Origin: a virus
Length of the DNA: 37,816 bases
Strand: one strand, 5' to 3'
Virus record (IMG/VR): IMGVR_UViG_3300021519_000022
Location: 1-37,816 of that record
In this document: positions 45 through 26,446 of the stretch, one piece after another
Layout of the letters: every line of letters starts with the position of its first letter
How positions within the stretch are numbered: position 1 is the first letter of the stretch
Notes under the pieces: model-generated
The model's database searches: none
Told to the model about the DNA's origin: nothing
What the model saw: only the letters and a program-made list of their open reading frames with translations
Made by a program: the position numbers and the translations under genes

Positions 45-512
45 ATGCAAAATAAACTACCGCCAGAGTTACACATTGTTCATGGAACTAAGGGAGAGAA
101 CCAAGGGGTTCTACTGCCTGAATCAATCCGCAAAAGAATCCCAGCCGCTGAATGGTTGGACAAACCTAATGCTTGGGACAAACGAAAATTCATTTTAGAA
201 ACTGCTGATTTCTTATATATCACTTATGGCATAGGAAATGACCAGGACAAACATACTATTTCTATGCTGGCAGATCAGATGGATTTGTATATTCAATGCA
301 ACAAGGGAATAGCAGAGCAAGGAATCATCAGCGAATATAACGATGGTAAGACTGTTGGTCCTAATCCTCATGTGGCTATCAGGGAAAAGACCCTAGCCAA
401 AATTATCTTGTTAATGAACGAATTAGGGCTTACCCCTAGAAGCCGTTTATCGTCTAGTAAAGTAGAGGAAAACAGTTCTGTTGCTAAATTCCTAAAAGGA
501 CCTAAAGGTTAA
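45..512 (+). CDS. terS: Terminase small subunit, P27 family
   Basis: A 155-residue protein that would recognise phage DNA and load the large terminase. The N-terminal Gly-Thr-Lys-Gly segment (residues 14-17) and the C-terminal stretch ending in LGLTPRSR match the usual plan of P27-type small terminases, in which a conserved L-G-L-T-P/S-x-S-R box lies near the end. A good ribosome site (AGGAGAA) lies 8 bases before the ATG. The stop TAA shares its last A with the ATG of the large subunit, so the two are translationally coupled. The gene sits just downstream of an HNH gene if the ends are joined, the arrangement of many cos-type phages. The family call rests on motif order and position, not on a search. 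Confidence 0.85.
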   Translation: MQNKLPPELHIVHGTKGENQGVLLPESIRKRIPAAEWLDKPNAWDKRKFILETADFLYITYGIGNDQDKHTISMLADQMDLYIQCNKGIAEQGIISEYNDGKTVGPNPHVAIREKTLAKIILLMNELGLTPRSRLSSSKVEENSSVAKFLKGPKG

Positions 513-2176
513 TGGATTGGCAAGATGGTGTTTTATATGCAGTTCAAGTAGCTAAAGGCGAAATTAATGTTTGCCGCAATGTAAAGCTGGCTTGTCAGCG
601 TTTCTTGAATTTTCTTGAAAACAAGGAATGGGAATGGGAGTTTGACCCAGACTATCCAATCCATGTCCTAAACTTTGCATCTGCGCTAAAACATACTAAA
701 GGACCTGATGCGGGTAAGCCCGTAATTCTTGAGCCTTTTCAGATTCTTTTTATTTGTGCCATTTATGGGTTTAGGTCTAAGAAAAATCATGCCGATAGAA
801 TGGTGCGAGATGTCATTTTGTTTATTCCCCGTAAAGCTGGTAAATCTACACTAACATCCATTATTGGCTTGTATGAGCTACTATGTGGAGAAGCTGGTTC
901 AGAAGTCTTTACCCTGGCTACGAACAGGGAACAGGCATCTATTGTTTTTGATGCCGCAAAAGGGTTTATTGAAAACATGGATACTGAACTGGCGAATCAG
1001 TTTAATGTCAGCAAATATGAGATTAAGAAGGCTGGTGATTCTCAGTCTATGTTTAAGGCTTTAAGCCGAGATACCAAAAAAACAGGCGATGGTAAGAATC
1101 CCAGTTGCGTTATCGTGGATGAAGCTAGTGCCATAGTAGATCGCAACTCAATCGAAGTCCTACATTCAGGTATGGTTGCTAGGAGTAATCCATTAAGGGT
1201 TTACATCACTACCGCCAGCTTTACTAAAGACACCAAGTTCTATGAAGATATGGATATGCTGGAATCTATCCTAAATGGGGATGTAGTGGATAACCCTAGG
1301 TGGTTTGGTTTGCTTTATGGCTTAGATTTGCAAGACGATTGGAAAGACCCTATAAATTGGGCAAAAGCTAATCCGATGCATGGCATTAGCGTATTTGACG
1401 ATGCCATTAAGGACAGAGCAGAAGAAGCCAAACATAAACCAGCAACCCTTAATGAGTTCTTATGTAAGACCCTTAACATATTTGTTAGTGCCAATTCTGC
1501 TTGGATTGATAGGGCTTATTGGGATGCGCCAGAGTGTTTAATCACAGAAGAACGCCATTCCGATGATGTATTTATTGGATTTGACTTGGCAGCAACTAGA
1601 GATTTAAACGCAGTATGCACTTTAAAGCGTTTTGGCGAATCTGATTTTGAGGCTAATTGGCAATTCTTTTTACCAGAAGAAGGATTTGAGTTAATCCCCA
1701 AGCATTACAAAGATGTTTTTAGATGTGCTATAGATTCTGGCATCCTTAAACTAACCGAAGGTAATGTCATGGATGATAGGGAAATTAGTGAATTTATCAA
1801 GATGCAAGCCGAAAAATATAATGTAAAAGAGGTAGGCTACGATGCTTATAATGCGGCTAGTTTGGTTGCTAGGTTGCATGATTCTGGGATTCCTGTAAAA
1901 AAAGTAGGTCAGGGAATGGCAGTTTTAAATAATCCTTCTAAATTTGTTGAAAAAATGATTTTAGGAAAAAACATTAAACACGATGGCAATCCATTTGTAG
2001 GTTGGCAGTTAGGGGGATGTGAAGTGTTTACCGATGTGAATGGTAACATTAAGGTTAGAAAGAATGAAGCCGATAAAGCACATAAGGTTGATGGTATTAT
2101 TGCAATGATTATAGCCTTCCATTGTGCTTTAGATAATCCATTTACATCAAACAGCTTTGGCTTTAGATCGTTTTAG
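512..2176 (+). CDS. terL: Terminase large subunit (ATPase and nuclease)
   Basis: The 554-residue packaging motor. The N-terminal ATPase carries a Walker A-like loop PRKAGKST (residues 106-113) and a Walker B element VIVDE (residues 200-204). The C-terminal nuclease has the first acidic residue in GFDLAATRD (Asp358), a middle acidic motif in VGYDAYNAA, and a last one in KVDGIIAM, the pattern of the RNase H-like terminase nuclease. This is the Terminase_1 type common in HK97-like phages. It powers DNA entry into the prohead through the portal and cuts the concatemer. It is coupled to the small subunit by a TAATG overlap. Length and motifs are normal. Confidence 0.95.
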   Translation: MDWQDGVLYAVQVAKGEINVCRNVKLACQRFLNFLENKEWEWEFDPDYPIHVLNFASALKHTKGPDAGKPVILEPFQILFICAIYGFRSKKNHADRMVRDVILFIPRKAGKSTLTSIIGLYELLCGEAGSEVFTLATNREQASIVFDAAKGFIENMDTELANQFNVSKYEIKKAGDSQSMFKALSRDTKKTGDGKNPSCVIVDEASAIVDRNSIEVLHSGMVARSNPLRVYITTASFTKDTKFYEDMDMLESILNGDVVDNPRWFGLLYGLDLQDDWKDPINWAKANPMHGISVFDDAIKDRAEEAKHKPATLNEFLCKTLNIFVSANSAWIDRAYWDAPECLITEERHSDDVFIGFDLAATRDLNAVCTLKRFGESDFEANWQFFLPEEGFELIPKHYKDVFRCAIDSGILKLTEGNVMDDREISEFIKMQAEKYNVKEVGYDAYNAASLVARLHDSGIPVKKVGQGMAVLNNPSKFVEKMILGKNIKHDGNPFVGWQLGGCEVFTDVNGNIKVRKNEADKAHKVDGIIAMIIAFHCALDNPFTSNSFGFRSF

Positions 2177-2206: not shown

Positions 2207-3604
2207 ATGGGTATTTTAGATATTTTTAAAGGTAAAAAAGTAGATTCAACAGAATCTAATACCCTTTTTGGTCAAACTCAACTTGGTAATAATGTTATTT
2301 ATCAAGGTCAAGGTGGCAAACAAACTGTATCTCAGCAATTACTTTATGTAACTACATCTAGCGCAACTGCCGCTGGTCGTACTGTTGATATGTCGGTATT
2401 AAGCCGCAATAGCACCATTATGAGTTGCGTAGGTGTTAAGGCTAGGGCATTAGCTCAATTACCTATTCGCATAATGTATAAAGCAGACGATGGCACATTT
2501 GTTAATGCTTTGGAATCAGATAAAGTTGGTTCTAGAGATAAAGCCAAAGCAAAACAAGTATTAAATTTGCTTACTATGCCTAATAATTTTGAAAGCCAAT
2601 ACGAATTTTGGTATCAATGGAGTATGTGGCAAGATTTAGCTGGTGAAACCTTTACCTTATGGTGGAGAAAAGACCAAACTGATTCTGTAGCTACTCCATT
2701 AGAGATGTATAACCTAGATGCAACCCTAATTACTTGCCAAATTACTCCAGCAAGATACCCAGCTTACCGCTTATCTACTCCTAGTTATGGCTTTAATAAA
2801 GATGAATTATTAGCGGCACATCAAGTTATGCACATTAAAGAAGCGGCTTGGCAAGGTGCGGCTGGTTTTAATAAAGGCATATTGGCAACTGAATTAGTAG
2901 CTTTAGACCAAGATATTGACCTTTATTCAAACTTTATTATGCAAAATGGCGCAAAGCCAACTGGTATGTTTGTTACTGACCAAGTAATTCCAGATGGCAA
3001 ATATAAAGAAATTGCAGCACGACTTAAAGAAGCCTGGTCTAGTATGACAGGTTCTAGAAATAGCGATTTAAGCAAACCAGGACAAGGAATGTTGTTAGAT
3101 CAAGGAATGAAATATCAGCCTTTACAAATGCTAACCCTTCAAGATGCTGATTGCGCTAGATTAAAAGAACAAACCATTAAGCGTATTTGCGCTTTGTTTG
3201 GTATTCCCCCACAAATGCTTGGAATAACAGAAGGCAAATTTAATAATACTCAAACATTATTAGATGAATTTTATAAAACCACCATGTATCCAATGGTAAT
3301 TAATATTGAACAAGGATTAAATCGTCATTTGTTAAAAGGTTATCCAAGTCTATGTATTCGATTTGATACAAAGGATTTCTTAAAAGGCGCACCATTAGAC
3401 CAAATGAATTTTGTAAATTCTGGAGTATCTGGTGGCATTATGACCCCTAATGAAGCTAGAGAATATCTAAATATGCCAAAAATGGATGGAGAAGATGAAT
3501 TAACTTCAAAATCTAAAGTAACAGAACCAATTTCAGGAAGTTCACCACAAGATACTGGCGGTGGTGGTGGAAATCAAAAACGCAAGATGAATATAGGCAA
3601 ATAA
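2207..3604 (+). CDS. Portal protein, HK97 family
   Basis: A 465-residue protein expected to form the dodecameric ring at the packaging vertex. Family signs are its position between large terminase and protease, a length of about 400-500 residues, a central region with alternating hydrophobic helices, the segment RICALFGIPPQMLG typical of HK97-type portals (the helix and loop that face the channel), and a low-complexity Gly/Lys tail. The start has a strong ribosome site (AGGAG) 6 bases upstream. The short gap before it (2177-2206) contains the near-palindrome TAGAATAATCATATTCTA, which could be a weak hairpin. The stop overlaps the ATG of the next small ORF. Confidence 0.93.
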   Translation: MGILDIFKGKKVDSTESNTLFGQTQLGNNVIYQGQGGKQTVSQQLLYVTTSSATAAGRTVDMSVLSRNSTIMSCVGVKARALAQLPIRIMYKADDGTFVNALESDKVGSRDKAKAKQVLNLLTMPNNFESQYEFWYQWSMWQDLAGETFTLWWRKDQTDSVATPLEMYNLDATLITCQITPARYPAYRLSTPSYGFNKDELLAAHQVMHIKEAAWQGAAGFNKGILATELVALDQDIDLYSNFIMQNGAKPTGMFVTDQVIPDGKYKEIAARLKEAWSSMTGSRNSDLSKPGQGMLLDQGMKYQPLQMLTLQDADCARLKEQTIKRICALFGIPPQMLGITEGKFNNTQTLLDEFYKTTMYPMVINIEQGLNRHLLKGYPSLCIRFDTKDFLKGAPLDQMNFVNSGVSGGIMTPNEAREYLNMPKMDGEDELTSKSKVTEPISGSSPQDTGGGGGNQKRKMNIGK

Positions 3605-4538: not shown

Positions 4539-5873
4539 ATGTCTGAGCAAATCATTGCAAAGCTAGACGAAATCGAAGCTAATACAGTAGCCAAGATTGA
4601 AGAAGGCAAAGCCGAAGCAGTAAAAAAAGTTGAAGAAGTTGTTGTAGCTTTTGAAGAAAAAGTTGCCGCTTTGGAAGCTAAAGTTAGCCAATTAGGCGCA
4701 ACTCCAGCAATCAAGACTTACAAATCTGTTGGTTCTGAAGTAAACCGCATGGTTAAAGAACAGTTGAAATCTTTTGTATCTAGCGATGCTCGTGTGCAAA
4801 AAGAAATTAAAATGTTTGAAGATGCTGGTCAATACGATGCGTATTTTAAAGAAGCATCTGCATTAACAGGTAGTGGTGCTGGTGTAGGTGGTCGTACAGC
4901 CTATGACCCTGTATTCGTTCCATTGCGTTTGATGAATCCTATGCGTGGTGTTGCTCGTACTGTTGCTACTGATGGCTCAACCTATCAGTTTCGTGCCAAG
5001 GTAGGCAATGCTGGTGCGGCTTGGGGCTATTCAATCCAAAATAACGGCTCTGCAACAACTGAAGATACAAATATTTGGCAATTAACTTTGCAAGATTTGA
5101 ATGTCCAGTTCCCTATCCGTACAGCCGCTTTGGATGACATTGATGGTTTAGAAGGTAATGTAGTTAGCGACATGATGGCTGAGTTCTCACAAGCTGAAGC
5201 ATTATCCATGATTCAAAATAATGACCAAGGCGCAACTTCTTTGGCTTATGGCGGTTCTAATGGTCTGCGTGGTTTGAATCAGTATGGTGGTGCTAATAGC
5301 TCATTTACTGGTGGTACAACTTCTGCTGCTGCTTTTGGTACTTCTGGTACTGGTTCTACAAGCGGTTTGCATAGTCTTGCTACTTATGACCAGCTAACAA
5401 GCAATGCTGCATCTGTAACAACCAACAGCATTACTTATAAAGATGTAGTGAACTTTATCTATGCATTGCCACAACAATACTGGACAGAATCTGCCAAGTT
5501 TGTTGTATCACCACTATTGCTACAAGCAATTCGTGGATTGGTAGATTCACAAGGTCGCCCAATCTATGTTGATGGTTTGGCTCGCAATGATGGAATTGTT
5601 GGTTCTTTACTTGGCTTTGATGTTGTAGTAAACAAGTATCTGTCTAGCCCTAACTCATCTTCATCTACTGCTGGTACAACTAGCTTGTATCCAATGTATT
5701 TTGGTGATTGGCAAAAGTGTTTCACAATCGTTGATCGCTTGAACATGATTCTCCGTAGATATGACCAAACTGCTCCTGGTTACATAACTTTCTTTGGAGA
5801 AAAAAGGCTCGCCACCAGCGTTGTTGATCCTAATGCCTTAGTTCGTTATCGTTCTACTGCAACTGCAACCTAA
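4539..5873 (+). CDS. Major capsid protein 1, HK97 fold, with N-terminal delta domain
   Basis: A 444-residue capsid protein. Residues 1-54 are a Glu/Lys/Ala heptad-rich coiled coil, the expected scaffolding delta domain. The conserved start of the mature shell protein is around residue 105 (EASALTGSGAGVGG). Later landmarks are the Gly-rich loops, and ITFFGEKR in the C-terminal domain, typical of the HK97 family. Cleavage near residue 100 by the upstream protease would leave about 340 residues. A strong ribosome site (AAAGGAAA) and codon use rich in common codons suggest high expression. It is followed at once by a rho-independent terminator and a paralogous gene. Confidence 0.95.
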   Translation: MSEQIIAKLDEIEANTVAKIEEGKAEAVKKVEEVVVAFEEKVAALEAKVSQLGATPAIKTYKSVGSEVNRMVKEQLKSFVSSDARVQKEIKMFEDAGQYDAYFKEASALTGSGAGVGGRTAYDPVFVPLRLMNPMRGVARTVATDGSTYQFRAKVGNAGAAWGYSIQNNGSATTEDTNIWQLTLQDLNVQFPIRTAALDDIDGLEGNVVSDMMAEFSQAEALSMIQNNDQGATSLAYGGSNGLRGLNQYGGANSSFTGGTTSAAAFGTSGTGSTSGLHSLATYDQLTSNAASVTTNSITYKDVVNFIYALPQQYWTESAKFVVSPLLLQAIRGLVDSQGRPIYVDGLARNDGIVGSLLGFDVVVNKYLSSPNSSSSTAGTTSLYPMYFGDWQKCFTIVDRLNMILRRYDQTAPGYITFFGEKRLATSVVDPNALVRYRSTATAT

Positions 5874-5879
5874 TAGGAT

Positions 5880-5915
5880 GGGTGGGTCAAAAGCCCACCC
5901 TTTCTTTATTATTAT
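5880..5915 (+). terminator. Rho-independent terminator between the two capsid genes
   Basis: Bases 5880-5887 (GGGTGGGT) pair with 5893-5900 (GCCCACCC) around a 5-base loop, seven Watson-Crick pairs and a closing T-G wobble. A run of T residues broken by single bases follows (5901-5920). It lies 7 bases after the stop of capsid gene 1 and 30 bases before capsid gene 2, so partial read-through would set the ratio of the two capsid proteins. Confidence 0.85.
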
Positions 5916-5929
5916 TTTTTGGAATATAT

Positions 5930-6961
5930 ATGAAATCAACTCTAATTTACGAAGCCATTAAAAAAGCCTTAGTAGAAGGTGAAGCTAAAATCAATTTGAA
6001 TGAAGCATCAGCGATTACTGGCTCTGGAAGTGGGGTTGGTGGTCGTGTTATTTATGACGATGCCTTTGCGGCAAGTCGTTTAGAAAATCCCTTGCGTATG
6101 GTTGCAAGACAGATTCCTACAATAGGTTCAGATGAAGCCTTTGTTGCTAAAAAGGGAAATGCTTTAGACCAAACAAATCCTTGGGGATATACTCCTGACA
6201 ATAATACTGGTAGCCCTGATACTGCTACTAGCTTTTGGCAAATTCCTATGCGTGTTATTAGCACAGTTTTGCCTATTCGTACTGCCGTCTTATCAGATGT
6301 AAATAATTTAGAAGAAACTGTTGTTGCAGATTTAATGGCTGAATTTAGTCAAATTGAAGCACAATCAATGATTTCAAATAATGACCAATCAGGCTCTAGC
6401 ACTACTTCTACTGGGGGTACAGATGGACTTAGAGGTCTTAATAGCTATGCTGGTTCTACTTCTGCCGCCGCTTATGGTTCTAATGGTTCTGCAATTACTA
6501 ATGGCTTACACACAGTATTACAAGTAGCACAAGCCTCTGCAACAGCAGTAGCTTATGATGATTTAGCAAGTTTACAAGCCGCATTGCCAGCGCAATATTT
6601 ATACAAACCTACAACTGCTTGGATGATGCATCCAACCACTATTGGTGTACTGCGTAAACTTAAAGCATCTACTGGTGGCACACCTATGTTTATGGAAGTT
6701 GGAGATGACGATGGTGGTTCTGTTATTTATATTTTTGGGCATAGGGTTATTCCTAACTCTTATATGGATGTAGCTGGTAGTGGCAAATATCCTGTGTACC
6801 TTGCTGAATGGGAAAAGTTTGTAACCATTGCAGATAATGAAGAAATGACCATTAAGCGTTTTGACCAAACTTCTCCTGGATTTATTAGTCTATATGCAGA
6901 AAAGCGCATGGTATCAACAATTAGGGATGTATTTGCTGGTGTCCGTTTATACGGAGTTTAA
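5930..6961 (+). CDS. Second capsid protein, delta-less paralog of major capsid protein 1
   Basis: A 343-residue HK97-fold protein clearly homologous to the preceding gene: EASAITGSGSGVGG against EASALTGSGAGVGG, LPIRTAVLSDV against FPIRTAALDDI, DLMAEFSQIEAQSMI against DMMAEFSQAEALSMI, and a matching C-terminal fold landmark. Residue 30 here aligns with residue 110 of capsid 1, so the 80-residue coiled-coil scaffold region is missing and this protein has about the length of mature capsid 1. I place the start at 5930 because the longer in-frame GTG at 5882 lies inside the terminator hairpin and would add a T-run-encoded leader. The ribosome site is weak (TTTTGGAA). It may be a minor shell or vertex subunit. 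Confidence 0.88.
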   Translation: MKSTLIYEAIKKALVEGEAKINLNEASAITGSGSGVGGRVIYDDAFAASRLENPLRMVARQIPTIGSDEAFVAKKGNALDQTNPWGYTPDNNTGSPDTATSFWQIPMRVISTVLPIRTAVLSDVNNLEETVVADLMAEFSQIEAQSMISNNDQSGSSTTSTGGTDGLRGLNSYAGSTSAAAYGSNGSAITNGLHTVLQVAQASATAVAYDDLASLQAALPAQYLYKPTTAWMMHPTTIGVLRKLKASTGGTPMFMEVGDDDGGSVIYIFGHRVIPNSYMDVAGSGKYPVYLAEWEKFVTIADNEEMTIKRFDQTSPGFISLYAEKRMVSTIRDVFAGVRLYGV

Positions 6962-6964
6962 TAA

Positions 6965-7633
6965 ATGGCTACTGATACCCTTACGGCTGGTCCTTATTTA
7001 GGATCATCTAGGAATCCTTATTCTTATGAGAAAGTTGAGCAGATTAGCAGAGATATTGCTACTGCTTGGCTAACTCTAGATGAAATTACCCAACAATTAA
7101 ACTTATTTGGCGATGAAAGCCAAGATACTTATCTATCTAGCATTGAATTAGCGACCCGTATGGCGATTGAGGACTACTTAGGTATGTCCATATTCCCTAT
7201 TACCTATAAAGCGTACTACGGGGCTACAAACACTACTGGAACGGATATGTCTTTGGACTTGCCAGAAGTATCACAAGATTCTGGTACAACTGCTGGTGTA
7301 GTCATAAATTCTGTTGGTTATTACAATGGAAATGTCCCACCAGTATTTACAACTTTAGCTTCTAGTTCATATTTTTATGATGCAACAGGAAATAAAGTAA
7401 TTGTTTTTTCTGGTATGCCAAATTCAGTTAATACTGTAATGACAAACCCTATTGTTATAACTTATCAAACCAAAGCTAATCCTTTGGCACAATATCCTGT
7501 AATTAAACAAGCTGGATTATTGCTTTTAACCCATATTTATAATAATCGTAGCAATACGACATCTGGCGGCTTACAGGAAATTCCTTTTGGCGTGGCTCAG
7601 TTATTGCGCCCATATAAACCACTTGTAATGTGA
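6965..7633 (+). CDS. Head-tail connector (gp6/gp8-like adaptor)
   Basis: A 222-residue protein expected to form the adaptor ring under the portal. The N-terminal helical part, with LDEITQQLNLFGDESQD followed by IELATRMAIEDYLG, matches the phiE125 gp8/HK97 gp6 type of DNA-packaging connector, which begins with such a helix pair and continues into a beta region. The C-terminal part KQAGLLLLTHIYNNR is also typical of that family. It starts 3 bases after the capsid 2 stop, with GGAG about 9 bases upstream. Confidence 0.75.
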   Translation: MATDTLTAGPYLGSSRNPYSYEKVEQISRDIATAWLTLDEITQQLNLFGDESQDTYLSSIELATRMAIEDYLGMSIFPITYKAYYGATNTTGTDMSLDLPEVSQDSGTTAGVVINSVGYYNGNVPPVFTTLASSSYFYDATGNKVIVFSGMPNSVNTVMTNPIVITYQTKANPLAQYPVIKQAGLLLLTHIYNNRSNTTSGGLQEIPFGVAQLLRPYKPLVM

Positions 7634-8436: not shown

Positions 8437-8931
8437 ATGGCACTCCCAAGTAAAGTCCTACCAGGATTTAGTGCGGCACTATATTTACAGCCTACTAGCA
8501 CTCCAACACCATTAACGCTTTCTCAATTAAGCACTTTAGCTTCTGTTGCCGCTATTGCAACAACTGGTAATTTACTTAATGTAGAAGCTATCCCAGCTTT
8601 TGGTCAAGATGATGCAGTTGCTTCATTTATGGTTGCTGGAAGCCGTCAAAGCGACAAAATTCCTACGCAGTCTGCCCCAACTTCATTGACAATTACTGCT
8701 CCTTGGAATCCATCTGATGCAAATCTTTTATTGGTTCGTGGTGATGCGTATAGCGGTATTGTAGAACGCACTTATGTAATTTCTGCTACCGATGGTTCAA
8801 ATATTGTTTATTACGCTTTCAATGCTCGTGCTTCTATGTTTCACATTGATGCACAACCTGGCGCAGAAGCTAAAGCTGTATTTTCAATTCACCCTAGAGG
8901 CAATCTCTATGGCTGGTCTAACAACGCATAA
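8437..8931 (+). CDS. Major tail (tube) protein 1
   Basis: A 164-residue protein, probably the main subunit of the tail tube. Position after the tail terminator and before the G/GT chaperones, length, a clear ribosome site (AAAGGA) and alternating beta-strand pattern fit a lambda V/HK97-type tube protein. The C-terminal two thirds are nearly the same as those of the next gene, including a 22-residue identical run starting AGSRQSDK. The C-terminus ends HPRGNLYGWSNNA. Confidence 0.8.
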   Translation: MALPSKVLPGFSAALYLQPTSTPTPLTLSQLSTLASVAAIATTGNLLNVEAIPAFGQDDAVASFMVAGSRQSDKIPTQSAPTSLTITAPWNPSDANLLLVRGDAYSGIVERTYVISATDGSNIVYYAFNARASMFHIDAQPGAEAKAVFSIHPRGNLYGWSNNA

Positions 8932-8940
8932 GGAATAATC

Positions 8941-9459
8941 ATGGCAGCTCCAAATTTAGTATTACCAGGGTTTTCAGCATCTTTATGGTGTCAAACTGGA
9001 ACAACCCCAACAGCTTTTACAACTACTAATTTAGCAATCTGGACAGCACAAGTAGCTACTATTGTTGGCACATCAGCAAATGGTACTGGCGCATCTGGAA
9101 CTCAATTAAATGTGGAAGCAGTACCCGCATTTGGTCAGGATGATGCGGTTGCATCTTTTATGATTGCTGGATCAAGACAGTCAGATAAAATTCCAACTCA
9201 ATCAGCACCAACATCTTTAACAATTACTGCCGCATGGAATCCAAGTGATTCTGGTTTATTGTTAATGCGTGGCGATGCTTATAGTGGAGTTATTGATCGT
9301 ACTTTTGTTATTGCAGCAGTTAGTGGCGCAACTACTATTGCTTATGCTTTTAATGGTCGAGTATCTATGTTCCATATTGATGCACAGCCAGGTGCTGAAT
9401 CCAAATGCGTATTTACTGTTCATCCTAGAGGCAATCAGTATGGTTGGTCTAACACTTAA
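8941..9459 (+). CDS. Major tail (tube) protein 2, paralog of protein 1
   Basis: A 172-residue paralog of the preceding gene, starting 9 bases after its stop with ribosome site AAGGAATA. The first 55 residues differ (an extra Ala/Thr/Gly-rich insertion), while from LNVEAVPAFGQDD onward the proteins are very similar. At DNA level many synonymous positions differ, for example serine AGC against TCA in the same aligned place. This points to an old duplication, with both copies kept under purifying selection. It could form mixed tubes or one end of the tube. Confidence 0.8.
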   Translation: MAAPNLVLPGFSASLWCQTGTTPTAFTTTNLAIWTAQVATIVGTSANGTGASGTQLNVEAVPAFGQDDAVASFMIAGSRQSDKIPTQSAPTSLTITAAWNPSDSGLLLMRGDAYSGVIDRTFVIAAVSGATTIAYAFNGRVSMFHIDAQPGAESKCVFTVHPRGNQYGWSNT

Positions 9460-20158: not shown

Positions 20159-23100
20159 ATGACTGATATTACTATTACAACCGCACAAGGCGGCAATAAC
20201 CTTGCTATTGATGTTGCTAGAGGAACTGATTTAATTCTTGATGTATCTATTGGTAATCAAATTACTATGGTTGTAGATCAAGGAATACAAGGTTCTAGTG
20301 GCACAAGTGGATATTCAGGCATAAGTGGCTACTCTGGGTTCTCAGGCTACTCAGGAATTTCAGGCTACTCATCTTATTCAGGCTATTCTGGAATCTCAGG
20401 ATATAGCGGAAAATCAGGCTATTCTGGAATCTCAGGATATAGCGGTTCTGGTGTATCTGGATATTCAGGAAGCGGAGTAAGTGGTTATAGCGGATATAGC
20501 GGTATCTCAGGCTTTTCAGGACAGTCTGGGGCATCTACATCAGGATATAGCGGATATAGCGGTATAAGCGGTTTTAGTGGCTATAGTGGGTATTCAGGAA
20601 GTGGAGTATCAGGTTACTCTGGTTCAGGACTTTCAGGATATTCTGGATGGTCTGGAATCTCTGGATATTCTGGTCAATCAGGAGCTTCAACTTCTGGTTA
20701 CTCTGGTTTTAGTGGGCAATCTGGCTATTCAGGATATAGCGGTAGCGGAGTTTCTGGTTATTCTGGGTATAGCGGTAGCGGACTATCAGGTTATAGTGGA
20801 TTTTCTGGTCAGTCTGGATATTCAGGTTCTGGTATCTCAGGCTTTTCTGGAATAAGTGGTTACTCTGGAAAATCAGGATACTCTGGTGCTGTAGGTGCTG
20901 GTGGAACTATTGGTAATTGGGGATCATTTTGGGATACAACAACTCAGACAACTACTGCCAATACCCCAACTGCAATTACTTTAAATTCCGCAGACACTAA
21001 TAATACTGGGGTATCAGTTGCTAGTAGTTCAAGAGTAACCTTTGTTAATGCTGGAACTTATAGTCTAACTTTTTCTTTACAACTTACAAATCATAGCACC
21101 GCTTTAGGTTCTATTCAAATTTGGCTAAAGAAAAATGGCACAAACATTACAGATAGCAACACACATTATGATGTTCCTGATAAACAAGGAAGTGCATTTT
21201 CATCCAATGTTGTAACTATAAATTATGTGCTGCAACTTAATGCTGCTGACTATATTGAAGTTTATTGGGATACTCCAAATGTTTCTGTTTACTTAGAAAC
21301 TTTAGCTGGAAATGCAACTTATCCTGAAACTCCATCCATAATCTTTACTGCAACACAAGTAATGTATGGTCAATCAGGATATTCTGGTTATAGTGGATAT
21401 TCAGGAACAAATGGTACATCAGGTTTCTCAGGTTATAGTGGTTCAGGAATTTCAGGCTACTCTGGATATAGCGGATCAGGAATAAGTGGATATTCTGGAT
21501 ATAGCGGAAGTGGAATTTCTGGTTATTCTGGTATCTCTGGATATAGTGGTGCTGGCAGTCCCCCTGGTGGTTCTACTACTCAAATTCAATACAATAACTC
21601 TGGTGTGTTTGGTGGAGTACCCCAACTAACTTACAATGGTACTACGCTGGCAAGGACAGGCGGCACAATCGATAACACAGTTATTGGTGCTACTACTGCA
21701 AATACTGGTAAATTCACCACTTTAGAAGCCACAGGAAATGTGGACTTAGGTACTGGCTCTGCAAACTATGTAGATGTTGTTGGTGGTGCGGCTACTATTT
21801 CACCAGTTATTGCTCCAATGGGAACAGACACTAATATCTCTTTGGTATTAGACCCTAAAGGAACTGGCGCATTAAATATAGCATCAGGCTCTAAAGGTGT
21901 AAACCTTAGCAATGGTAATACTGTAACTGCTATTAATAGGTCTGCGGCTGGAAGTGGATATACATCATTCCCAACTCCAACTGTTGCAGTACCTACAACT
22001 GCTGGTGGTGTTCAAGCGGTAATTGCAGTAAACAATATGGTTTCAAGTGCCGCTACTATTGCTGGCGGTGGCACAGGATACACAGTTGGCGATGTATTAA
22101 CGCTTGTTGGTGGAACTGGAACTGCTGGAACATTTACTGTATCAACTGTATCTTCAGGTGTTATTACAGCCGTAACTTCTACAACAGGAAGTGCATATAC
22201 AGTCTTGCCATCTAACCCAGTATCCGTTACTGGTGGCACAGGCACAGGAGCAACGCTAACTGTAACTTATGGTATTGGTACAACATTTACTATTTCTACT
22301 GCTGGCTCAGGTTATGTAGAGCAACCAGCTATTACTTTTTCAGGTGGTGGTGGTACTGGTGCATCAGCCTATGCCGTTGTTGGTGCTGGTGCTGTATTCC
22401 GTTCACTTGGCTCTACAGGAACTCAGTCATTAGACTTTTATACACCTAGTTCTATCAATAGTGGAGTTCCAGCTTTTAGAATAAGGGATGGTGTAAATGC
22501 TGATAGTTACCCAATAGTTTCAAATACTACTGGTTCAGTTGCATTTACTACTGGTGGTGCTTCCAATGCGGCAATGTTTTTGATTGCTGGTACAGCACCA
22601 ATATCTTTTCAAACTGGTGGTAGCGCAACTCAATTTAGGGCTAACCATGTTGCTTCTGCTGTAAATTATCTTCAAGCATCAGGTGGTGCGGCTGGTATTT
22701 CTCCTCATTTACTTGCGGCTGGTACAGATACCGATATACCTATGGTGTTACAACCTAAAGGTGCTGGTGCAATACAAGCGCAATTGGTTACATCAGGCTC
22801 TACTACTGGCGGTAACGCTAGAGGTGCTAATGCGGTTGATTGGCAGACTACAAGAACTGCGGCATCACAAGTTGCAAGCGGCACAGCTTCTGTTATTGGC
22901 GGTGGCTATCAAAATACATCTTCTGGAAATTACAACACTATAAGCGGTGGTCAAGGAAACATAGCAAATTCATCTTATGGTGGTGTTGGTAGTGGTGCTT
23001 CAAATACCATTGCCGCCAATTATTCTTTTATTGGTGGTGGAACAAGCAATTCAATTACTAATGGTGCTGCAAGTAATTATTCATTTATAGGCTCAGGCGT

Positions 23101-24187
23101 ATCAAATTCTGCTCATGGTGTATATAATTTTGTTGGCGGTGGTTTTACAAATTCAGGAACAGTTGCCGCAGCAGTAACATCACAATCTGCAACCATGAAT
23201 GGCACAACTGCGGTTACATTAAGTGGTTCTAACGCTAGTATTAAAGTCGGTCAATACATTGGCGGTACTTCAATAGCCTCGGATACTTATGTTGCCGCAA
23301 TTAGTGGCACAAGTTTAACTTTAAGTAAAAATGCTAGCGGTTCATCCACTTCAACCTTATCTTTCTATACACCTCATGGTGTAGTAGTAGGTGGCGGTAA
23401 TAACCAAGCAACAGGCTCTTACTCATTTATTGGTGGTGGTGGCGATGCTGGTACTGCGGCTAACCGAAATGCGGCATCAGCAGATTGGGCTACTGTATGT
23501 GGCGGCATTAAAAATGTGGCATCAGGAATTGGCTCATTTGTTGGTGGTGGTGGCACAGACGGAACAAACATTGGTGGAAATTTAGCTTCAGGCGTATATT
23601 CCGCTATTGTTGGTGGCTACAACCATACAGCAAGCGGTACTGGTTCTTTTGTTGGAAACGGATTTAATCATGCCGCAAATGGTTCATATTCTGCATTAAT
23701 AAACGGCACAAGAGGAAACACTAGAAGTGTTCAAGGATATGTTGCTTTCCCTGCTGTTGAACCTATTGCCACAACTTCAGGATGTACACAAGCTGGTTTA
23801 CTTGTATTAGGTGTTGCAACTACAGATGCTACTGCCACAGTATTAAGGTCTAACTCATCTGCCGCAAGTGGAACAAACCAAGTAATCCTACCTAATAACT
23901 CTGCTTACTTCTTTAAAGGTGAAGTGATTGCTGGTGTAACTAGCGCTGGCGATACTAAGGGCTGGACTATTGAAGGTGTAATTAAGCGTGGTGCTGGTGT
24001 AGGAACAACAGCGATTGTAGGAACTGCAACAGTTACTTCTTTATACGCTGATACTGGTGCGGCAACTTGGGCAGTAACGGCTACGGCTGACACCACCAAT
24101 GGTGGATTAAAGATTACAGCAACAGGACAAGCATCAACTACTATTCGCTGGGTAGCAAAAGTAGAAACAACTGAAATGACATTCTAA
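20159..24187 (+). CDS. Long tail fibre with collagen-like repeats
   Basis: A 1342-residue mosaic fibre. Residues about 47-244 are Gly-x-Ser triplets, mostly GYS and GIS, with Gly at every third residue as in collagen but without proline. Residues about 250-400 form a C1q/TNF-like beta-sandwich (NWGSFWDTTTQTTTANTPTA at the start, IIFTATQVM at the end). A second triplet block spans about 403-464. Then come GGSTTQIQYNN, which is a common fibre motif, a strand-rich region with DTNISLVLDPKGTGALNI repeated later as DTDIPMVLQPKGAGAIQA, a YadA-head-like repeat region (about 911-1198; NTxSGNYN, GGGxxN, ASGxGSFVGGG), and a terminal beta domain. Trimeric structure is expected. It probably recognises cell-surface structures. 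Confidence 0.8.
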   Translation: MTDITITTAQGGNNLAIDVARGTDLILDVSIGNQITMVVDQGIQGSSGTSGYSGISGYSGFSGYSGISGYSSYSGYSGISGYSGKSGYSGISGYSGSGVSGYSGSGVSGYSGYSGISGFSGQSGASTSGYSGYSGISGFSGYSGYSGSGVSGYSGSGLSGYSGWSGISGYSGQSGASTSGYSGFSGQSGYSGYSGSGVSGYSGYSGSGLSGYSGFSGQSGYSGSGISGFSGISGYSGKSGYSGAVGAGGTIGNWGSFWDTTTQTTTANTPTAITLNSADTNNTGVSVASSSRVTFVNAGTYSLTFSLQLTNHSTALGSIQIWLKKNGTNITDSNTHYDVPDKQGSAFSSNVVTINYVLQLNAADYIEVYWDTPNVSVYLETLAGNATYPETPSIIFTATQVMYGQSGYSGYSGYSGTNGTSGFSGYSGSGISGYSGYSGSGISGYSGYSGSGISGYSGISGYSGAGSPPGGSTTQIQYNNSGVFGGVPQLTYNGTTLARTGGTIDNTVIGATTANTGKFTTLEATGNVDLGTGSANYVDVVGGAATISPVIAPMGTDTNISLVLDPKGTGALNIASGSKGVNLSNGNTVTAINRSAAGSGYTSFPTPTVAVPTTAGGVQAVIAVNNMVSSAATIAGGGTGYTVGDVLTLVGGTGTAGTFTVSTVSSGVITAVTSTTGSAYTVLPSNPVSVTGGTGTGATLTVTYGIGTTFTISTAGSGYVEQPAITFSGGGGTGASAYAVVGAGAVFRSLGSTGTQSLDFYTPSSINSGVPAFRIRDGVNADSYPIVSNTTGSVAFTTGGASNAAMFLIAGTAPISFQTGGSATQFRANHVASAVNYLQASGGAAGISPHLLAAGTDTDIPMVLQPKGAGAIQAQLVTSGSTTGGNARGANAVDWQTTRTAASQVASGTASVIGGGYQNTSSGNYNTISGGQGNIANSSYGGVGSGASNTIAANYSFIGGGTSNSITNGAASNYSFIGSGVSNSAHGVYNFVGGGFTNSGTVAAAVTSQSATMNGTTAVTLSGSNASIKVGQYIGGTSIASDTYVAAISGTSLTLSKNASGSSTSTLSFYTPHGVVVGGGNNQATGSYSFIGGGGDAGTAANRNAASADWATVCGGIKNVASGIGSFVGGGGTDGTNIGGNLASGVYSAIVGGYNHTASGTGSFVGNGFNHAANGSYSALINGTRGNTRSVQGYVAFPAVEPIATTSGCTQAGLLVLGVATTDATATVLRSNSSAASGTNQVILPNNSAYFFKGEVIAGVTSAGDTKGWTIEGVIKRGAGVGTTAIVGTATVTSLYADTGAATWAVTATADTTNGGLKITATGQASTTIRWVAKVETTEMTF
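20297..20890 (+). repeat. Coding repeat block 1, Gly-Tyr-Ser triplets
   Basis: About 200 codons of degenerate 9- and 18-base units translating as GYSGIS, GYSGYS, GSGVSG and GQSGAS. Codons for the same unit vary (TATTCAGG, TATAGCGG, TACTCTGG), which limits slippage while keeping the protein pattern. Not a CRISPR array, as there is no constant repeat with spacers. Confidence 0.9.
21367..21555 (+). repeat. Coding repeat block 2, Gly-Tyr-Ser triplets
   Basis: A shorter copy of the same protein repeat in the same reading frame, about 62 codons, separated from block 1 by the C1q-like domain. It ends in GYSGAGSPPGGS, where Pro appears for the first time. Confidence 0.88.
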
Positions 24188-24478: not shown

Positions 24479-25063
24479 ATGACACAAAATAATATAAAAG
24501 AATTAGAAAACAATTTTGAAAGAGCCGTATTTTTAAAGGGTGACCCAGTTTATCCTAGAGAAGCCAGTAGATATATCTGGGCTAATGAACATCTATTAGG
24601 TAAAAATATATTAGAGATTGGTTGCTCTAGTGGTTATGGCATTCAATTTTTACCAAATGATATACATTATGTTGGTGTTGATTACGATTTAAGAATTACT
24701 CAATGTGCCTCTATGCAAGGCTGGCGAAACAATACTTTGTATGTTCATGCCGACATCAATACATTAAAACTGCAACAACATGACACTATTATTGCTTTTG
24801 AAGTCATAGAGCATCTTGATAATGGCTTAGAGATTGTAAAGAAATTACAACAGCATTGTAAAAGATTGCTGATAACTGTTCCCCACAATGAGCCAGTAGG
24901 ATTTTGGGGTGAACATCATAAACTTCATGGTCTTACAGAAAAGGATTTTCCTGATTTCCACTTTGAATATATAGATGAGCATGGCAATATTTCAAGTCTA
25001 TTAAGGGCTTTAGATGCTAGTAATCGCTTTAATCTAATGATCTGTAGGTGGGACAATGCCTAA
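24479..25063 (+). CDS. SAM-dependent methyltransferase, class I
   Basis: A 194-residue enzyme with motif I ILEIGCSSGYG (residues 44-54), an acidic strand end GVDYD (66-70) for the ribose hydroxyls, and IIAFEVIEHLDNG as motif post-II, the UbiE/Methyltransf_11 plan. It would methylate a small molecule, sugar or protein; the neighbouring glycosyltransferase suggests a sugar chain. No Shine-Dalgarno sequence is visible before the ATG. Its end overlaps the next gene by 8 bases. Confidence 0.82.
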   Translation: MTQNNIKELENNFERAVFLKGDPVYPREASRYIWANEHLLGKNILEIGCSSGYGIQFLPNDIHYVGVDYDLRITQCASMQGWRNNTLYVHADINTLKLQQHDTIIAFEVIEHLDNGLEIVKKLQQHCKRLLITVPHNEPVGFWGEHHKLHGLTEKDFPDFHFEYIDEHGNISSLLRALDASNRFNLMICRWDNA

Positions 25064-26021
25064 AGTCTTATGTTCTGTAGCGACTAGAGGGCGGTACTTT
25101 ACTACTCTACCTTTAGTTCTGCAAGCCATTATTAATCAAACCCAGTTACCAGATAAGTTGGTAATTTTTGATGATAACAATGAACCAAATGATATGCGGA
25201 AAGAAATGATTTATCAGTATTTCTTTCAAATGCTTAATATAAAGGGTGTCAAATGGGAATGGTTATATGCTGAAAAAAAAGGACAGCATCATATTCATCA
25301 ACAAGCAAATAGAATGGGATTTGATTGGGTCTGGAGAGTAGATGACGATGCTATTCCAGAATCAAATGTATTGGAACAACTTTGTAGTCACATTGATACT
25401 ACAGTAGGTGCTATTGGTGGATCAGTTCTTACCATGCCTAATGTATTTGATATTTCCAAATCTACAGGAAAAATAAAAGATATTGATTCAGAACCTAATA
25501 TTCAATGGAGTAACATAAATGTTACTAATGAAGTTGAGCATCTGCATTGCTCATTCCTATATAGGGCTGGTATCCATGATTACAATTTAGGGCTTTCTAG
25601 AGTAGCCCACAGAGAAGAAACCTTATTTACCTATGGTATATACCAAAAGAAATATAAAGTTTTAGTTGTGCCAAATGCTATTACTTGGCATTTAAAAGCA
25701 AAAGGTGGCATAAGAAGCGAAACAAAACAGGAGATGTATGCTCATGATGAACAAATTTTTAGGAACATTGTCGGCTTATCTAATAAAACCATTGTGGTTC
25801 TTAATAGTGGTCTTGGGGATCATATTGTCTTTAGCCGTATTCTTTCAGACATTCCAAACCCTGTGGTCTTTACTTGCTACCCTGAAATAGTGCCAGGGCG
25901 ATCTATAGCCGAAGCACAAGCCTTATTTGGCAATATTGACCAATATAATATCTACGGCAAGATGGATCAATGGAAATGGAAAGATAGCCTTGAGAACGCT
26001 TATAGGAAGCTCTATTTATGA
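25056..26021 (+). CDS. Glycosyltransferase family 2 fused to a GT9-like N-terminal half
   Basis: A 321-residue protein. Residues 1-240 are a GT-A/GT2 enzyme: an N-terminal strand CSVATRGR, a nucleotide-sugar aspartate in VIFDDNNEP, and the metal-binding triad D96-D98 in RVDDDAIPE, followed by a His in ITWHLKAKGG. From about 245 a separate Rossmann-like start IVVLNSGLGDHIVFSRIL resembles the N-terminal half of GT9 heptosyltransferases. The protein ends 76 residues later, and the next gene supplies the GT9 C-terminal half. The ATGA overlap ties the two together. It probably adds sugars to LPS or to a phage structural protein. Confidence 0.78.
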   Translation: MPKVLCSVATRGRYFTTLPLVLQAIINQTQLPDKLVIFDDNNEPNDMRKEMIYQYFFQMLNIKGVKWEWLYAEKKGQHHIHQQANRMGFDWVWRVDDDAIPESNVLEQLCSHIDTTVGAIGGSVLTMPNVFDISKSTGKIKDIDSEPNIQWSNINVTNEVEHLHCSFLYRAGIHDYNLGLSRVAHREETLFTYGIYQKKYKVLVVPNAITWHLKAKGGIRSETKQEMYAHDEQIFRNIVGLSNKTIVVLNSGLGDHIVFSRILSDIPNPVVFTCYPEIVPGRSIAEAQALFGNIDQYNIYGKMDQWKWKDSLENAYRKLYL

Positions 26022-26446
26022 TTCTGATACATCCCTATGCCAAAACCCTACAAAATGGCAAGCAAAACCCTAAAAACTATCCTTACTGGAAAGAATTAAT
26101 AGGATTAATTTCTGAGGAAATAATACAGATTGGTGTAAAAGGTGAAGAACAACTTGTTCCAGATTTTCGCAAGAATTTGCCAATTATTGAATTAAGACAG
26201 CTTATTAAAGATTGCCGTACTTGGATTTCAGTTGATAGCTTCTTTCAGCATCTTGCATGGAGTGAAGGCAAGCCAGGCATTGTTTTGTGGTCAGTATCTG
26301 ATCCGCTAATATTTGGTCATGCTGAAAACATCAATTTGCTTAAAGATAGAGCAACTTTGACCCCTAATCAATTCCTTTGGTGGGATTTTACTGAATATAA
26401 TTTAGAAGCATTTACTTCTCCAGAAGAAGTGTTAAAATGCCTGTAA
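26018..26446 (+). CDS. GT9 (heptosyltransferase-like) C-terminal half
   Basis: A 142-residue protein with the recognisable GT9 end domain: an initial strand MILIHPYAKT (the start of the C-terminal Rossmann domain), then WISVDSFFQHLAW, the equivalent of the D-S-x-x-x-H-L-A nucleotide-sugar motif, and PGIVLWSVSDPLIFGH, the P-x-x-x-L-x-G-x-x-x-P equivalent. It lacks the N-terminal acceptor domain, which seems to lie on the end of the upstream protein. The two chains likely assemble, or the split arose by a stop between domains. The overlap is 4 bases (ATGA). Confidence 0.72.
   Translation: MILIHPYAKTLQNGKQNPKNYPYWKELIGLISEEIIQIGVKGEEQLVPDFRKNLPIIELRQLIKDCRTWISVDSFFQHLAWSEGKPGIVLWSVSDPLIFGHAENINLLKDRATLTPNQFLWWDFTEYNLEAFTSPEEVLKCL

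Follow-up and report, generated by a model that had tools for sequence, protein, structure and literature searches.

Tandem HK97-fold capsid genes in small freshwater phages: a universally paired paralog that may build the capsid vertices

Most tailed phages build the hexamers and the pentamers of their shell from one protein, T4 being the textbook exception. The head module of the virus sequence analyzed here (IMG/VR record IMGVR_UViG_3300021519_000022, all 37,816 bases of which we call the window) is of the ordinary HK97 type, with two capsid genes, MCP1 and MCP2, in place of one (Table 1). What does the second gene do? Elsewhere in the window, the putative major tail protein is also tandem-duplicated (8437-8931 and 8941-9459, 65% identity), GYSG/GFSG-type collagen-like repeats follow one another over a long stretch of the N-terminal part of a 1342-aa protein (20159-24187), and an ORF run beyond the tail genes (24479-26446) resembles, by eye only, a methyltransferase and glycosyltransferases.

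Table 1. Head-module features of the window; a slash marks a predicted cut
Feature	Position	Strand	Basis
Small terminase	45-512		
Large terminase	512-2176		
Portal	2207-3604		
S78-family prohead protease, 263 aa	3737..4528	+	Pfam PF04586, 4e-9; PHROG head maturation protease
MCP1, full-length major capsid protein, 444 aa	4539..5873	+	PF05065, 2.7e-33; RcGTA capsid profile match, 4.3e-12
Putative MCP1 cleavage site, F103-K104-E105/A106	4845..4856	+	E105 in 118/118
Intrinsic terminator-like hairpin, GGGTGGGT-CAAAA-GCCCACCC plus T-rich tail, directly 3' of the MCP1 stop	5880..5909	+	Top scan site
MCP2, second HK97-fold capsid protein, 343 aa	5930..6961	+	39% identity to MCP1; PF05065, 1.2e-21; Foldseek
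Putative MCP2 cleavage site, L23-N24-E25/A26	5996..6007	+	E25 in 117/117
MCP2 A domain, about residues 205-299 (limits approximate, from the low-confidence MCP2 model), most diverged from MCP1	6542..6826	+	Between/within identity ratio 0.45
Head-tail connector, 3' of MCP2	6965..7633	+	PF05135, 3.5e-5; PHROG head-tail adaptor

The two proteins are HK97-fold paralogs, as the original prediction had claimed for this tandem pair. By BLASTP, residues 97-436 of MCP1 align with residues 17-339 of MCP2 (39% identity, 58% positives, E 2e-65); both belong to the Pfam family Phage_capsid (PF05065) and to PHROG 10 (“major head protein”), and both match by profile the RcGTA capsid (Rcc01687, 6tb9), with which they share the HK97 fold (2.4e-5 for MCP2). 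Structures were predicted from 18-row alignments and, given their low confidence (pLDDT 50.8 for MCP2 and 38.5 for MCP1), only the fold match was drawn on: at E-values up to 0.001, the MCP2 model gave 50 Foldseek matches to shells of the HK97 fold, from phages, encapsulins and their relatives, and not to another fold, with the RcGTA capsid as the best (6.5e-9). MCP1 is laid out as a helical delta region (about residues 1-104) followed by the HK97 core; in its low-confidence model residues 1-107 are mostly helical, in keeping with a delta/scaffold region. MCP2 had been described as lacking the scaffold and starting just before the mature end. Most of the delta region is indeed missing, but the protein keeps a short N-terminal extension of about 24 residues upstream of the mature end, aligned with the last delta-region helix, together with the cleavage motif. 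Its start is most likely the ATG at 5930 and not the GTG at 5882 of the mechanical ORF call, because that codon lies inside the intergenic hairpin and the orthologs begin at the position of 5930. A single capsid gene split by a frameshift or sequencing error was rejected, as both HK97 cores are complete and the second has a start of its own beyond the hairpin.

We assembled 330 homologous loci from scans of IMG/VR, of bacterial and archaeal genomes and of a phage collection; some are overlapping pieces of one contig, so the distinct phages number fewer than 330, and the complete and unique proteins in the set number 227 for MCP1 and 233 for MCP2. MCP1 is followed by MCP2 in 313 of the 330 loci and the remaining 17 end at a contig edge within 187 bases of the expected partner, which excludes chance pairing. 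The pair is universal in these small freshwater phages and kept in every genome that could be checked, the original prediction having proposed to look for it in other freshwater phages; MCP2 thus follows the major capsid gene as its paralog throughout the group, a trait by which a T4 gp24-type protein would be recognized. In two of the scans MCP2 relatives numbered at least 566 and at least 596. Relatives without MCP2, sought to date the duplication, were not found among the 330 loci. Within the bacterial and archaeal genome scan, only two contigs in bins carried an MCP2 relative. One of the two is labelled as a Candidatus Nitrosotalea MAG (locus L178) and is probably a mis-binned phage contig.

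The group has a cultured member, the Methylophilaceae phage P19250A (KX815270), which has the same gene order and both capsid genes (63% identity for MCP1 and 57% for MCP2 by tblastn); its MCP2 (P19250A_0006) is annotated “hypothetical”. It differs from the window in having one major tail gene instead of two. The tail-protein duplication is common to 19 other loci, the gene being single-copy in most loci. Phages SfII, Bcep176, VW-6S and Shpa share the HK97 fold and the portal-protease-capsid-connector order of the window but have one capsid gene each.

A tree built from 32 pairs, with an outgroup of four single-capsid phages, resolves MCP1 and MCP2 as one clade each (SH-aLRT 92 and 99, respectively), which places a single duplication before the group spread; given the long outgroup branches, the root is unsure. 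The 39% identity and the single deep split in the tree led us to reject a duplication of recent or local origin. Purifying selection acts on both genes: the median dN/dS is 0.13 for MCP1 and 0.19 for MCP2, the faster-evolving of the two. Distances across phages correlate only partially between the two genes (Mantel r 0.41), a hint that genomes have exchanged some of them.

The original prediction held that the second protein needs no maturation cleavage, a claim that the alignments do not support. Glu105 of MCP1 is invariant, with a hydrophobic residue at P3 and mostly A, D or S at P1', and Glu25 of MCP2 is equally invariant in the same hydrophobic-x-Glu/Ala setting (118/118 and 117/117 orthologs). 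In the larger set the motif is present in 227/227 unique MCP1 and 231/233 unique MCP2 proteins, and of the two exceptions one (L130) still has LKE/A and the other (L209) is a fragment. At L209:5815-6755, MCP2 appears as two overlapping ORFs, an assembly frameshift error or a broken gene. The adjacent S78 protease has its catalytic residues H73 and S124 invariant in 117 orthologs. Because the MCP2 motif is invariant as in MCP1, MCP2 is probably processed by this protease; both proteins are probably cut after the motif Glu, with predicted propeptides of about 105 residues in MCP1 and about 25 in MCP2. A Glu specificity for the enzyme would follow from analogy with other phages (T4 and SPN3US). 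T4 gp21 cuts after L/I-x-E, and HK97's own protease cuts at a different sequence. The SPN3US prohead protease gp245 cuts after A-x-E (PMC10052503).

Between the capsid genes stands the hairpin of Table 1, which ranks first among the terminator-like sites of the 20 kb scanned. Among loci with a unique MCP2, a perfect G+C-rich hairpin with a T-run follows MCP1 in 108/126; by the same criteria there was none after MCP2 (0/117) or before MCP1 (0/118), and controls gave 2 hits in 378 windows inside MCP1 and 4 in 378 shuffles. All perfect hairpins found after MCP1 comprise 63 distinct stems, so pairing is kept while the sequence changes. Read plainly, most transcripts would stop after MCP1 and read-through would supply less of MCP2 and of the genes behind it; alternatively, the hairpin could stabilize the 3' end of the MCP1 message. 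As a control of the ratio between the capsid proteins it would be unspecific, acting on all downstream genes beyond MCP2.

MCP1 and MCP2 have not diverged evenly. The ratio of between-family to within-family identity is 0.92 around the cleavage site, 0.60-0.72 in the P-domain segments and 0.45 in the A domain, the cleavage site/N-arm motif being the region best conserved between the two. A domains meet at the capsomer centre. Within each family, too, no region varies more than the A domain, so its divergence between MCP1 and MCP2 is only suggestive.

The original prediction had likened the pair to T4, where a capsid paralog forms pentamers, and the likeness is closer than it claimed: the order is the same, the extension of the second protein is shorter, and the A domain is the most diverged part. 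In T4 the major and then the minor capsid gene stand in tandem, and the two are likewise HK97-fold paralogs that arose by duplication. The T4 minor protein gp24, a paralog of gp23, occupies 11 vertices, gp24 loses 10 N-terminal residues and gp23 65 (about 25 against 105 predicted here), and some T4 bypass mutations map to the A domain (PMC9958956), which is thus implicated in capsomer choice there and diverged more than the rest here. The two systems also differ: T4, a 170-kb myophage, has a prolate head, separate scaffold proteins and about 20% identity between gp23 and gp24, whereas the present phage is of the 38-kb HK97 type with a delta-type scaffold region, an S78 protease, an intergenic hairpin and 39% identity between its capsid proteins. 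No T4 protein was found among the Pfam, PHROG, PDB-sequence or phage tblastn matches, so MCP2 may work like gp24 and is nevertheless not filed as a gp24.

We lean, if only slightly, towards MCP2 being a minor shell protein with a dedicated role, produced by a tandem duplication of the major capsid gene and specialized since, most likely forming the pentameric corners of a shell whose hexamers are made of MCP1. This vertex role is favoured because the A domain is the most diverged region, because T4 offers a precedent and because MCP2 expression is apparently limited. MCP1 would be made in excess, most transcripts ending at the hairpin, with smaller amounts of MCP2 coming from read-through; the procapsid would be nucleated by the MCP1 delta region, and MCP2 pentamers would join through the shared P-domain and N-arm surfaces, their five-fold packing being set by the A domains of MCP2 itself. 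The S78 protease would then cut both proteins at hydrophobic-x-Glu/Ala. A T=7 shell, as would suit a genome of this size, would comprise 55 penton and 360 hexamer subunits. On this reading MCP2 would be found in virions, cleaved, in penton stoichiometry and at the vertices; for P19250A_0006, the predicted mature start under this model is AAGLQGSGLNVGGR, following a cut after VNE.

The main rival to the vertex role, which we consider unlikely, is that MCP2 co-assembles at variable positions in the MCP1 lattice and tunes the shell, as in two-component encapsulins. Such shells exist: family 2B encapsulins (Streptomyces lydicus) combine two HK97-fold proteins in one shell of variable composition, although they are cellular compartments without DNA packaging (PMC12407261). 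The Foldseek matches of the MCP2 model include chains of these two-component encapsulins, and MCP1 and MCP2 have kept their P-domain surfaces relatively similar. Mixed capsomers, however, would bring strongly diverged A domains together, and the retention of MCP2 in every testable genome suggests a fixed role.

The variants of MCP2 bear on the other possibilities. An extra N-terminal domain of about 100 aa, matching PHROG 2859, is present in 11/233 unique MCP2 proteins (loci L018, L020, L030-L034, L036, L037, L039-L041, L045, L108, L110 and L169); the same domain is N-terminal in the protease-capsid fusions of Synechococcus phage S-CBS3 and Roseobacter phage CRP-406. In two of the 233 (L022:5001-6242 and L105) the E-loop region is enlarged by an insert of roughly 70 residues, for which the L022 copy has PHROG matches, one of them to a tail-fibre family. 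The 227 unique MCP1 proteins all fall between 431 and 490 aa. The additions to MCP2 suggest that it sits where bulk is tolerated.

MCP2 could also regulate assembly or size, or build, in low copy, only the portal-adjacent capsomers. A probably hairpin-limited expression would fit, as would the fusion to a domain that also heads the S-CBS3 and CRP-406 protease-capsid proteins, but MCP2 is a complete shell protein of mature length with a conserved N-arm and P-domain, and most MCP2s lack the extra domain; we regard such a role as decidedly unlikely. Still less probable is a protein that stays out of the virion, acting for example as a decoy or inhibiting assembly, or kept as a redundant spare: the faster evolution of MCP2 and the “hypothetical” label in P19250A are compatible with it, and universal retention, purifying selection and the conserved processing motif speak against it. 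Least probable of all, MCP2 would serve mainly as a head-surface platform displaying binding domains, an idea drawn from the E-loop inserts, one with a tail-fibre match, beside the steady length of MCP1, yet confined to two of the 233 proteins and lacking an insert in the window's own MCP2.

Tandem HK97-capsid paralogs in siphophages did not come up in the open-access literature that we searched, and the novelty of the pair is provisional. It is possible, and we propose it only tentatively, that a two-subunit shell with its own penton protein arose independently in a very common small HK97-type lineage of freshwater phages, the subunit ratio being set by a terminator between the genes and the penton gene serving as a socket for an N-terminal head domain or an adhesin-like E-loop insert. 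If MCP2 does form the vertices, these phages would provide a second, independent T4-like case, this time among small HK97-type phages, with one relative in culture and hundreds more in metagenomes. The 39% identity of the paralogs, against about 20% in T4, would let the changes from a quasi-equivalent capsid protein to hexamer-only and pentamer-only forms be traced directly, and a conserved “hypothetical protein” adjoining the capsid gene in abundant freshwater phages would gain a function.
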